The notes beneath the pieces are model-generated. The model saw only the letters and a program-made list of their open reading frames with translations, had not been told where the DNA came from and did not search any database. Shown one piece after another: positions 27,342-31,691 of a stretch of 64,000 bases of DNA. The DNA is from Pontibacter flavimaris. Its GTDB lineage: Bacteria > Bacteroidota > Bacteroidia > Cytophagales > Hymenobacteraceae. The position numbers were made by a program, and so were the translations under genes. Within the stretch, counting starts at the first letter, position 1. The number at the start of each line of letters is the position of its first letter. The stretch is from positions 806,001 through 870,000 of the forward strand of contig NZ_LVWA01000005.1 in assembly GCF_001907195.1 (NCBI RefSeq), given 5' to 3'.

Positions 27342-28020
27342 GATTATCCCACTCTTATCAGAGAAGAAGTTTGTGAGCTGCTCCGCGTAGAGAAAGAGCA
27401 GCAGCGGGTCCTTATCCGGGACCGGGTATGGTTTCTGCGCCTGCTTAAAGAAGGCACGGCCCAGACCCAGCTTCACCGGGCCGTCGGTCCCGCTGCCCGG
27501 TGAAACTGGGCTACGAGTGGGCCTACCTCTACGTGGCGCTTTGTCCCTTCACCGGGATGTGTTCGCCATGCTGCTGCCGCGCCTGGACAAGGCCGGCTGG
27601 TTCTTTGGCCTCAAGCTGCACCTGGTCACCAACGGGCATCAGGAGTTGGTGCGCTTCCTGATCACCCCGGCCAACGTGGCCGACAACAACCCCCGCGTGC
27701 TCTCCTTGCTGCTCTCCGGCCTAAAGGGCAAGTGCTACGGCGACAAGGGTTATCTTACCTCCCTTTTCGAGGCGTTGCTGGAAGAAGGCCAGCACTTGGT
27801 CACCAAGGTGCGGCGCAACATGAAAAACATGCTCCTCACCCTGCAGGATAAAGTCAACCTACTCAAGCGGGGCAGCATCGAGGCGGGTAATGACATCCTG
27901 ATGGCGGTGTGTGATAGCGATCATACCCGCCACTGCAATCCAATGAACGCCCTGGCTCAGATCTTCTCCGGCCTCACCGCCTATACCTTTCTGGACCAGA
28001 ACAGCAGATTTAAACCGGCC
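27342..28020 (+). pseudogene. Decayed transposase mosaic: IS630-like pieces joined to an IS982-like piece
   Basis: Piece 1 (27342-27503, closed by TGA) reads DYPTLIREEVCELLRVEKEQ and VWFLRLLKEGTAQTQL, the N-terminal helix-turn-helix part of IS630-type transposases. Piece 2 (about 27500-27591), after a frame change, reads KLGYEWAYLYVALCPFTG then, in the next frame, DVFAMLLPRLDKA, like the start of the IS630 DDE domain. Piece 3 (about 27592-28020) reads GWFFGLKLHLVTNGHQELV, GKCYGDKGYLTSLFEALLEEG, TKVRRNMKNMLL and HTRHCNPMNALAQIFSGLTAYTF, the C-terminal half of IS982 transposases. The intact 172-codon frame at 27517-28035 spans pieces 2 and 3. No complete ends were recognised. It is non-functional. 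IS982 identity is firm; the IS630 part is likely. Confidence 0.65.
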
Positions 28021-28228
28021 AGATTAAATGCTTAATTGCCGAGTTCACGTTAAACTCTTCTTGCTGAAGAATCGAGAACAGGCCTGGTTTGCTTGGCCAG
28101 TCGATGTTGCTGATCACAGTGGCAATCCAAACGGCTCGAAATTTCCGTTTCAGCGAAGTAGGTTGGGCGTATGCGCATAGGACCAAAAAGTTCAGCAACA
28201 GGGGATTAATGAACGTAAGTTTCTTCAT
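28016..28228 (-). pseudogene. Truncated 5' fragment of a GHL10 (DUF187) family gene
   Basis: On the minus strand an ATG at 28228 opens a signal peptide (MKKLTFINPLLLNFLVLCAYAQ) followed by LKRKFRAVWIATVISNIDWPSKPG and QQEEFN. This matches residues about 28-60 of the intact GHL10 protein encoded at 33885-35465 (LKREFRAVWIATVANIDWPGQKG, QQQEFK). The match ends at about 28030, exactly where the transposase mosaic begins, so the rest was lost by insertion or deletion. It is a paralogue, not a copy, of the intact gene. Confidence 0.75.
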
Positions 28229-28343
28229 GCGTAATAAGAGGCTGTTTAGTGAAGTTATTAGGTATAACTTTTTGAAGCATGGCTTGTGGCTAGGCGGTGT
28301 GTTGTTTGGTTGCAGAAAATTGCAACAGTAGAATCAACGTTTA

Positions 28344-29127: not shown

Positions 29128-30993
29128 ATGATGTTCCAAAAGAAAAATCTACGAGCACTGGCGCTGGCAGCACTTATTTCGGCGTCTGGCGGGCTGGGGC
29201 TGATGGGCTGCGCGCAGACAAAGTATAAAGGCGCCAATGCTGCCACCTCAGAGGAGCCAAGCGCCTGGGTGCGCATCAACCAGCTGGGGTATACGCCCTC
29301 CGGCATAAAAGTAGCGGTGTGGGTGAGCAAGGAGCAGAAAAAGCTGCGCCGGTTTGAGCTGGTAGACGCTGCTACGGATCGGGTGGTGTTCACAGGCGAG
29401 GCCGGCAACGCCTTCGGCGCCTATGGCCCTTTCTCGGAATCCTACCGGTTGCACTTCACCCAGTTCACGGAGCCGGGCAGCTACTACATTAAGGCGGGCA
29501 AGGTAAAGTCCCCCACCTTCCGGATCGATGCCGAGGTATACAGCGGCACTGCGGATTTCGCGCTCCGCTACATGCGCCAGCAGCGCAGCGGCTACAACCC
29601 ATACTTGCAGGACTCCTGCCACGTGCACGATGGCTACACCATGTATGGCCCTATGCCCGACAGTACCCTCATCGATGTGTCGGGTGGCTGGCATGATGCC
29701 TCTGATTACCTGCAGTACGCTACCACTTCCGCAAACGCCACCTACCACCTGCTGGCCGCTTACCGCGACTTCCCGGAGGTGTTCTCTGACCAGCACCAAG
29801 ACAATGGCCTGGCGGGGAGCAACGGCCAGGCCGACGTGCTGGATGAGGCAAAGTGGGGACTGACCTGGCTTTCCAAAATGCACCCGCGCGAGGACTGGCT
29901 GTTCAACCAGCTGGCCGATGACCGCGACCACCAAGGACTGCGCCTGCCTACCAAGGATGACGTGGACTATGGCATGGGAAAAGGGAAAGCGCGCCCGGTA
30001 TACTTTGCAACCGGCGAGCCGCAGGGATTGGGCAAGTATAAAAACAGGGCCACGGGCGTAGCCTCTACGGCAGGAAAGTTCGCCAGCGCCTTTGCCCTGG
30101 CCGCGCAGCTTTACCGGGAGCAGGAGGATGATCTGGCAAACTTCTACAGCAAAAAAGCACTTTCAGCCTACAAGCTGGGCCTGGCAAAGCCGGGAGTAGC
30201 ACAAACGGCCCCAAACCGCGCCCCATACTTTTATGAAGAAGATAACTGGGTGGATGACATGCAGCTGGGCGCCGCGGCCCTGCACCAGCTGACAGGAGAG
30301 CAGCGTTTCTTTGAGCAGGCGTACGCGTATGGCCTGCAGGAGAAGGTAACGCCCTGGATGGGAGCAGACACGGCACGCCATTACCAGTGGTACCCGTTCC
30401 ACAACTTCGGGCACTATGAACTGGCCAAAAATGCAGCGGCAGATAAAAAAGCAGCGCTTATCGGATTCTATAAGGAGGGGATCGAGAAAGTATACGCCAA
30501 GGCTAAGAAGAATGCTTTTTACCGTGGCGTCCCTTTCATCTGGTGCTCCAACAATCTCACGACTTCCTTTGCCATTCAAAATCATCTGTACCGGGAGCTT
30601 TCCGGAGATGAGTCCTACGCCGAGTTGGAGCAGGCCAACATAGATTGGCTTTTCGGTGTGAACCCCTGGGGAACAAGTATGGTGTACGGCTTACCGTCCC
30701 ACGGCGATACCCCAGTCGACCCGCATTCCTCTTTAACCTACCTGCACCAGATGCCGCTCGACGGTGGGTTGGTGGATGGGCCGGTTTATGGCAGCATCTT
30801 TAAGAATCTGAAGGGCATCCAGCTGACAAAGCCTGATGAATACGCCGCGTTCCAGTCGGACCTGGTGGTGTACCACGACGACTTCGGAGACTACAGCACC
30901 AACGAGCCAACCATGGACGGTACCGCCTCGCTGATTTATCTGCTGGCGGCAAAAGAGCACAGCGCACGGGAGGGGGCGCAGGCAAAAAAGTAA
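29128..30993 (+). CDS. Glycoside hydrolase family 9 lipoprotein, ending at a frameshift site
   Basis: 621 residues from ATG 29128 (a second ATG follows at once). Lipoprotein Cys28 (GLGLMGC). Residues about 45-130 form the CelD-type N-terminal Ig domain (WVRINQLGYTPSGIKVAVW). The GH9 barrel carries DVSGGWHDASDY at 183-194 (catalytic Asp pair region) and TNEPTMDGT with the acid Glu593. GH9 enzymes cleave beta-1,4-glucans or related glycans. The gene ends GCA-AAA-AAG-TAA; the A-AAA-AAG heptamer just before the stop is a classic -1 slippery site, and the -1 frame runs straight on into the deacetylase frame. The product may therefore exist as both a short form and a GH9-deacetylase fusion. Confidence 0.85.
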   Translation: MMFQKKNLRALALAALISASGGLGLMGCAQTKYKGANAATSEEPSAWVRINQLGYTPSGIKVAVWVSKEQKKLRRFELVDAATDRVVFTGEAGNAFGAYGPFSESYRLHFTQFTEPGSYYIKAGKVKSPTFRIDAEVYSGTADFALRYMRQQRSGYNPYLQDSCHVHDGYTMYGPMPDSTLIDVSGGWHDASDYLQYATTSANATYHLLAAYRDFPEVFSDQHQDNGLAGSNGQADVLDEAKWGLTWLSKMHPREDWLFNQLADDRDHQGLRLPTKDDVDYGMGKGKARPVYFATGEPQGLGKYKNRATGVASTAGKFASAFALAAQLYREQEDDLANFYSKKALSAYKLGLAKPGVAQTAPNRAPYFYEEDNWVDDMQLGAAALHQLTGEQRFFEQAYAYGLQEKVTPWMGADTARHYQWYPFHNFGHYELAKNAAADKKAALIGFYKEGIEKVYAKAKKNAFYRGVPFIWCSNNLTTSFAIQNHLYRELSGDESYAELEQANIDWLFGVNPWGTSMVYGLPSHGDTPVDPHSSLTYLHQMPLDGGLVDGPVYGSIFKNLKGIQLTKPDEYAAFQSDLVVYHDDFGDYSTNEPTMDGTASLIYLLAAKEHSAREGAQAKK

Positions 30994-31028
30994 TCACCGA
31001 TGGTTACGGAGCCATCGTCCGGGGTGAT
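30971..31028 (+). promoter_or_regulatory. Candidate programmed -1 frameshift signal
   Basis: Three elements are in order. An AGGGGG purine tract (30971-30976) can act like an internal Shine-Dalgarno site. The heptamer A-AAA-AAG in the GH9 zero frame is at 30984-30990 and is followed immediately by TAA. A downstream stem pairs ATCACC (30993-30998) with GGTGAT (31023-31028) and GATGG (30999-31003) with CCATC (31012-31016), with an 8-nt loop and a 6-nt bulge. The spacer between heptamer and stem is shorter than usual. An alternative is a one-base loss in an A7 run. Confidence 0.55.
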
Positions 31029-31691
31029 ACGGCAGTTAAAAGTATAGCCCTGGTTTTTACGGGGGATGAATATGGGGACGGAGGGGAGGTGATTCGGCAG
31101 AAGCTGGAGAGGCATGACACCAGGGCCTCCTTTTTTCTGACCGGACACTTTTACAGGAATCCTGAATTTGCGCCGCTGGTAAAGCAATTGGTTGAAGAAG
31201 GCCATTACATGGGCGCCCATTCCGACGAGCACCTCCTTTACTGCGACTGGGCCAGGCGCGACAGCCTGCTGGTTTCGCAGAAGCAGTTTAGCCAGGACCT
31301 GCAAATGAATTACCAGCGCATGGCGGGCTTTGGGATAGCGAAAGCGGATGCGCCATACTTTCTGCCGCCTTACGAGTGGTACAATCAGCGTATAGCTGCC
31401 TGGACAAAGCAGGAGGGCCTGCAGCTCGTAAACTTTACCCCGGGCACCCGCTCCACCGCCGACTATACCTGGCCGGAGATGGGAAATCGCTATGTGAGCT
31501 CGGAGGAGGTTTACCAGTCCATCATGAAGTATGAGCAGCAGGACCCGCACGGGTTAAACGGATTCATACTTCTGGTACATATCGGTACGGACCCGCGGCG
31601 CACCGATAAGTTTTACAACCGGCTGAACGAGCTGCTGACAGCGCTTAAAGGCAAGGGATACACGTTTGTTACCATCGATGAGCTGTTATAA
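30990..31691 (+). CDS. Polysaccharide deacetylase (NodB) domain in the -1 frame of the GH9 gene
   Basis: The frame is open from inside the GH9 gene and continues as VITDGYGAIVRGDTAVKSIALVFTGDEYGDGGE and then QKLERHDTRASFFLTGHFYRN. TGDE supplies the catalytic/metal Asp, and GAHSDEHLLYCDW the two metal histidines. The first usable start (GTG 31089) lies after TGDE and would remove the catalytic Asp, so independent initiation cannot give an intact domain. The domain ends DPRRTDKFYNRLNELL, GYTFVTIDELL. CE4 enzymes remove N- or O-acetyl groups from glycans. Most likely it is made as the C-terminal part of a GH9 fusion by frameshifting, or it is a recent frameshift mutant of a fused gene. Confidence 0.7.
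   Translation, partial: VITDGYGAIVRGDTAVKSIALVFTGDEYGDGGEVIRQKLERHDTRASFFLTGHFYRNPEFAPLVKQLVEEGHYMGAHSDEHLLYCDWARRDSLLVSQKQFSQDLQMNYQRMAGFGIAKADAPYFLPPYEWYNQRIAAWTKQEGLQLVNFTPGTRSTADYTWPEMGNRYVSSEEVYQSIMKYEQQDPHGLNGFILLVHIGTDPRRTDKFYNRLNELLTALKGKGYTFVTIDELL

Follow-up and report, generated by a model that had tools for sequence, protein, structure and literature searches.

A GH9 gene of Pontibacter flavimaris and the CE4/NodB-like coding region that follows it in the -1 frame very probably constitute one gene, from which dnaX-type programmed -1 ribosomal frameshifting would yield both GH9 alone and a GH9-CE4 fusion. Comparison with relatives shows that the slip signal and the two reading frames are conserved and that selection acts on them. 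The locus lies in a stretch of 64,000 nucleotides, the whole of which is referred to here as the window, and its features are given in Table 1.

Table 1. Features of the GH9-CE4 locus, in positions of the window
Feature	Position	Strand	Remarks
GH9 gene, 620 aa	29131..30993	+	ORF list; CelD_N Ig-like and Glyco_hydro_9 domains; zero-frame product ends ...GAQAKK-stop
Probable lipoprotein signal peptide (MFQKKNLRALALAALISASGGLGLMGC) of GH9	29131..29211	+	By eye on the translation
SD-like GGGAGGGGG, core GGAGG at 30969-30973	30968..30976	+	GGAGG core 10 bases upstream of the heptamer; whole GGGAGGGGG 7 bases upstream
Slippery heptamer A-AAA-AAG	30984..30990	+	Zero frame reads GCA-AAA-AAG-TAA
-1 frame coding region, CE4/NodB-like, 235 aa from the heptamer	30984..31691	+	PF01522
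Zero-frame stop TAA	30991..30993	+	Abuts the heptamer
Predicted bulged stem-loop, possible minor stimulator	30993..31028	+	-14.1 kcal/mol, 13 pairs
TGDE in the place of CE4 motif 1, residues 26-29	31059..31070	+	
HSDEH, H(S/T)xxH-type metal-binding motif	31218..31232	+	H79, S80 and H83 invariant in 60/60 aligned homologues

An earlier sequence-only reading had described the end of the GH9 frame at the heptamer and stop, a -1 frame open from the heptamer to the end of a deacetylase, the lack of a start codon before TGDE in that frame and a purine tract 7 bases upstream of the heptamer; each of these was found again in the sequence. The GH9 product matches PF00759 (E 9.1e-65, 220.1 bits for a cut-off of 27.7) and CelD_N (PF02927, E 3.5e-23), and its N-terminal MFQKKNLRALALAALISASGGLGLMGC, judged by eye, is what we take to be a probable lipobox-type signal. 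The -1 product contains a NodB domain and fold (PF01522, E 2.6e-10, 40.8 bits for a cut-off of 23.1). From the opening of this frame, 144 nt upstream, there is no ATG, GTG or TTG until a GTG at 31089 (residue 36), which falls downstream of TGDE. We then considered the 54 AAAAAAGTA[AG] sites of the same genome: only the GH9 site both closes an open zero frame of at least 100 aa and opens a -1 frame of at least 100 aa, and its layout is thus beyond what chance would give (the runner-up has 95 aa in the zero frame and 229 aa in the -1 frame). A pattern of GGAGG, 4-14 bases and AAAAAAG occurs at 30 places in this genome, the GH9 site among them.

Relatives of the -1 protein were searched in 59 genomes, its own included. 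All 16 strong matches (E < 1e-100; five weaker ones, L017-L021, were set aside) carry A-AAA-AAG and, directly behind it, a TAA or TAG, the domain lying in the -1 frame, and this conservation supports the programmed shift proposed by the sequence-only reading. Wider searches at E 1e-20 or better retained 51 of 390 genomes of the order and 19 of 395 genomes of the class, with partial overlap, and a scan of named genomes contributed the best 80 of 462 relatives, which biases the locus set towards near relatives. From the 158 loci classified, 18 duplicates with identical CE4 DNA were removed; the 90-residue fragment G238 was excluded, and L065, with no A-run and an ATG of its own, was placed among standalone genes. 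In the resulting set, whose sources include those best 80 of 462, the 140 distinct loci comprise 48 with a -1 overlap at an A-run, 62 in-frame fusions and 30 standalone genes. The 48 shift loci divide into 37 with A6G, one with A7, one with A8, seven with A9 and two with A10, and every A6 run (37/37) stands in the slip phase A-AAA-AAG. Among named genera, A6G occurs in Pontibacter, Rhodocytophaga, Daejeonella, Arcticibacter, Pararcticibacter, Pedobacter, Flavihumibacter and Chryseolinea, among others, and A9 in Rufibacter, an uncultured Chitinophaga and Chryseosolibacter, among others. Some genomes that share a genus group with that of the window have loci identical to those of named Pontibacter. 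The shift site is present in several orders of Bacteroidota; as the loci share descent, these counts are not counts of independent events.

Selection on the slip signal is visible at silent positions. The codon preceding AAA-AAG in the 37 A6G loci is GCA, CCA, GTA or GGA: the amino acid varies and the silent third base is A in all 37, for an expectation of 0.198 from the fourfold sites of these genes or of 0.275 within the same codon box. In an ungapped stack of 28 loci, which leaves out six of the 34 A6G-plus-stop loci, the zero-frame silent bases -15 and -12, both within GGAGG, are G in 28/28; silent bases farther upstream differ in about half of the pairs. Until 24 bases before the heptamer, change is fastest at the third codon position of the zero frame, and beyond the heptamer at the third position of -1 codons. 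The last 24 bases before the heptamer have no phase (0.40, 0.35, 0.42), indicating that the GH9 residues encoded there are weakly constrained. A TAA or TAG abuts the heptamer in 34 of the 37 loci. Such a stop makes GTA (Val) the first -1 codon after the lysines, and the junction valine codon is GTA in these 34/37, versus 28% of the valine codons downstream. The GH9 stop of the A6G loci is TAA in 22, TAG in 15 and TGA in none, so that all of them are open to release factor 1; TGA is the stop of two A9 loci, L135 and L136.

The upstream Shine-Dalgarno (SD)-like element is similarly constrained. GGAGG or GGGAG is found 10-13 bases upstream in 36 of the 37 A6G loci, with a gap from SD core to heptamer of 10 bases in 28 of the 37 loci (as in the window); two loci have a gap of 11, six of 13 and one of 6. 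Five A6G loci bear a second, nearer GGAGG with a gap of 5. Stimulation of -1 frameshifting by an SD is described as operating at 9-14 bases (PMC5009743). Pairing with the 16S tail was among the best 5% of same-phase windows of the locus's own gene at all 39 A6-8 loci (among the best 1% at 28), versus one of nine A9-10 loci (Mann-Whitney p 4.4e-6, uncorrected for relatedness), and the GH9 gene of the window stands at the best 2.3%. Near the GH9 end, a lysine-glutamate pair is written AAG-GAG in 9 of 20 A6-8 shift loci and in none of 16 fused loci. The SD sits on this pair in six loci only, all six with AAG-GAG; the 6-versus-0 test (p 1.3e-5) carries little weight, since these loci were picked for their SD position.

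Downstream, the sequence-only reading had seen an 11-bp bulged stem and, with it, the layout of dnaX. A stem is indeed predicted there, with 13 pairs rather than 11, and the heptamer and GGAGG of this layout are conserved in relatives but the stem is not. Averaged over the 37 A6 loci, z for positions +8 to +52 was -0.71, compared with -0.30 over the 62 fused loci and +0.41 for a control stretch, and a second pair of means for downstream structure was -0.93 in A6 loci versus -0.43 in fused genes. We rejected downstream structure as a general conserved stimulator; at most, the stem-loop would be a lineage-specific one.

The translation machinery of the genome is consistent with slippage at this site. 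Among its 43 tRNA loci the only tRNA-Lys anticodon found is TTT, and in E. coli the sole tRNA-Lys is reported to pair better with the AAA of the -1 frame (PMC5009743). The 16S tail is the standard CACCTCC. A point against the frameshift is that Bacteroidia ribosomes are described as occluding the anti-SD and as generally failing to recognise SDs in initiation, although prfB of Bacteroidia is described as still using its SD, with the shift kept in 523 of 726 genes surveyed (PMC8710568). The prfB gene of P. flavimaris itself (L306, about 1445-1512) has the +1 frameshift layout, a first ORF of 20 codons ending AGGAGG-TAC-CTT-TGA-C. It was found by a family search; L254, retrieved as an AGGAGG-like pattern match, is not prfB.

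From these features we infer the slippage itself and an efficiency that would leave both products. The GGAGG 10 bases before A-AAA-AAG would pair with the 16S 3' tail of a ribosome translating GH9, and two lysyl-tRNAs, drawn from tRNA-Lys(UUU) as the sole lysine tRNA found, would re-pair one base back on AAA-AAA. Ribosomes remaining in frame would terminate at TAA, giving the GH9 lipoprotein of 620 aa. Those that slip would read KKVITDGYGAIVR... and complete a GH9-CE4 fusion of about 853 aa; as the fusion carries the GH9 signal peptide, the CE4 domain would be exported with it.

Several known systems resemble parts of this scheme. E. coli dnaX shares A-AAA-AAG, an SD-like stimulator in the 9-14 range and a sole tRNA-Lys for AAA and AAG (PMC5009743). 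It differs in that the dnaX shift gives the short product, whereas the GH9-CE4 shift gives the long one and the zero frame stops at once, and in its stem, which has no conserved counterpart at the GH9-CE4 site; a reversed arrangement, with a long shifted product, is attributed to some bacterial dnaX genes (PMC5009743). Transcriptional slippage on the A9 of Thermus dnaX (PMC3711429, PMC5009743) recalls the nine GH9-CE4 relatives with A9-A10, unlike the window with its A6 and SD. The prfB shift is likewise a case of an internal SD acting on the elongating ribosome in Bacteroidia (PMC8710568), also by sequence in the present genome, but it is a +1, autoregulatory shift and concerns release factor 2. 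Magnesium chelatase and other GeneTack families were, like this one, recognised via conserved sites and fused homologues (PMC3711429); in the main text of that article, deacetylase, cellulase and glycoside or glycosyl hydrolase are absent. The sequence-only reading knew of no described frameshift in this enzyme class. This holds for GH9 and CE4, for which we found no published case in the open-licence papers searched, and it fails for glycoside hydrolases at large: fucA1 of Saccharolobus solfataricus, an archaeal GH29 alpha-L-fucosidase, needs a -1 shift at A-AAA-AAT (PMC8211752). This is the closest published case found, although its shift connects the N-terminal with the C-terminal part of a single enzyme and that of GH9 appends a second catalytic domain.

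Could the frames be joined, or the domain expressed, in some other way? A run of A6 versus A7 is a classic error and a transposase fragment lies nearby, and the sequence-only reading had kept the loss of an A from A7, by mutation or sequencing error, as its alternative. The same site, however, recurs in 37 distinct loci, selection acts on its silent positions and the CE4 domain that follows in the -1 frame is conserved; an A-run of six or more stands at the junction in only 8 of the 62 in-frame fusions, so fused relatives are not an A7 version of it. Sequencing error is therefore very unlikely as the cause of a signal that selection maintains in many related bacteria, and a recent frameshift mutation in a decayed gene is barely conceivable. 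Polymerase slippage, by which an added A would put a share of the mRNAs into a single frame, is plausible in the nine A9-10 relatives, eight of which show no strong SD in the stretch examined; in many bacterial genomes, selection against slippage becomes apparent at a run length of nine (PMC1088944). At the locus of the window and 36 others the run is A6 only, short of a homopolymer of about nine or more. It stands in the ribosomal slip phase in every case, and each of these loci has a well-paired GGAGG or GGGAG upstream, for which polymerase slippage has no need. In some organisms shorter runs may also slip (PMC1088944), and for the window we regard it as highly improbable. Separate translation of CE4 by termination-reinitiation at the GH9 stop could make use of the GGAGG preceding that stop, coupling SDs being known at gene ends (PMC5009743). 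It would nevertheless lack a suitable start: 35 of the 48 shift loci have no ATG, GTG or TTG in the -1 frame through domain residue 30, and the starts of the other 13 are all without a signal-like stretch. By a simple, permissive hydropathy rule, which takes the best start within 300 bases and asks for a mean hydropathy of 1.8 across 11 residues, none of the 48 shift loci has a -1 frame start with such a stretch and 30 of 30 standalone relatives have one. The -1 codons after GTA are variable, so no near-cognate start is kept, and the AlphaFold model is confident from residue 1, with a first strand at residue 4 (pLDDT 97.7), so that later starts would be predicted to cut into the domain. A reinitiated product would, moreover, be without signal peptide, and we hold this route to be still more improbable than polymerase slippage.

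There is also the reading that the shift is real and the fusion alone matters, short GH9 being a by-product. The 62 of 140 distinct loci that encode the fusion without a shift speak against the shift being needed and make the short form look dispensable there. On the other side, the stop abutting the heptamer and the fixed GTA valine of 34/37 A6G loci look as if termination were selected. We thus consider the by-product reading doubtful and expect that both products of the programmed frameshift would matter.

How the site is distributed suggests repeated change. A single origin of A6-8 sites on the CE4 tree was rejected (AU p 1.7e-6, 38 A6-8 rows versus 102, with L080, an A6 row on a long branch, standing among the 102). 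The A6-8 loci are thus not one clade on the CE4 domain tree, and the state has been gained or lost repeatedly; a quick tree gave 26-29 changes, a figure that is not an event count, as many forks are open and gains and losses are not separated. One clade of this tree (SH-aLRT 99) unites L027, whose A6 is accompanied by GGAGG at 6 bases, with L029 and L155, whose A9 runs lack a strong SD, and a switch of recoding mechanism seems to have occurred there. We lean, with some reserve, towards one two-domain secreted family expressed in Bacteroidota by interchangeable means (SD-assisted frameshift, polymerase slippage at A9-10 runs, fusion in frame, or a separate gene whose product is exported), lineages switching among them and the shift setting a fixed ratio of GH9 to GH9-CE4. 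If true, elongating ribosomes of Bacteroidota would read SDs that initiating subunits mostly ignore; a GGAGG kept so strictly at silent sites, in a phylum rarely initiating via SDs, makes this anti-SD role in elongation directly testable, and relatives with A6 and SD versus A9 without SD offer a natural experiment on switching. Utilised -1 frameshifting in cellular genes is seldom catalogued, chromosomal genes making up 10 of 245 Recode entries (PMC4066793). Gene callers would be expected to split off or truncate the CE4 part, so that in many Bacteroidota the annotation may misrepresent an exported enzyme of two domains.

Turning to the appended domain, canonical CE4 motif 1 is TFDD, and H(S/T)xxH is the CE4 metal-binding motif. 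Among 60 aligned homologues motif 1 reads TGDE or TGHE instead of TFDD: D occupies position 28 in 44 of them and H in 14, the latter hinting at an altered active site, and position 29 is E in 53 and D in 6. With TGDE in place of TFDD we call the domain CE4-like and its activity putative. By sequence it is nearest to PdaA (its match to NCBIfam pdaA is below the cut-off), and by fold to peptidoglycan, chitin and xylan deacetylases. Neighbouring genes encode, among others, Amidase_2, GHL10, GH3-beta-lactamase, NagB-PIG-L and ROK proteins, a TonB-dependent receptor, a SusD-like protein, peptidase S13, an MR/MLE enzyme and an NlpC/P60 protein. This neighbourhood, the likeness to PdaA and the deacetylase folds point to an amino-sugar polymer, and the two domains would act jointly on such a substrate, peptidoglycan or chitin-like. 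Upstream of the amidase gene, 27517-28331 holds a DDE_Tnp_1_3 transposase piece (profile positions 40-154) and then another short ORF, probably a broken insertion sequence.

Finally, we looked at GH9 genes without the domain. A GH9 match at E 1e-100 was present in 21 genomes, five of them without a CE4 match, and in four of these five (G021, G031, G012 and G022) the in-phase heptamer is absent, which favours the frameshift reading. GGAGG is lost as well in G021 and G031; G012 and G022, which have GGAGG strings without any A6, are distant (62% identity) and may never have carried the site. The fifth, G018 (L271), counts against that reading, since it retains GGAGG and A-AAA-AAG-TAG, as either a vestige or a site with another use.
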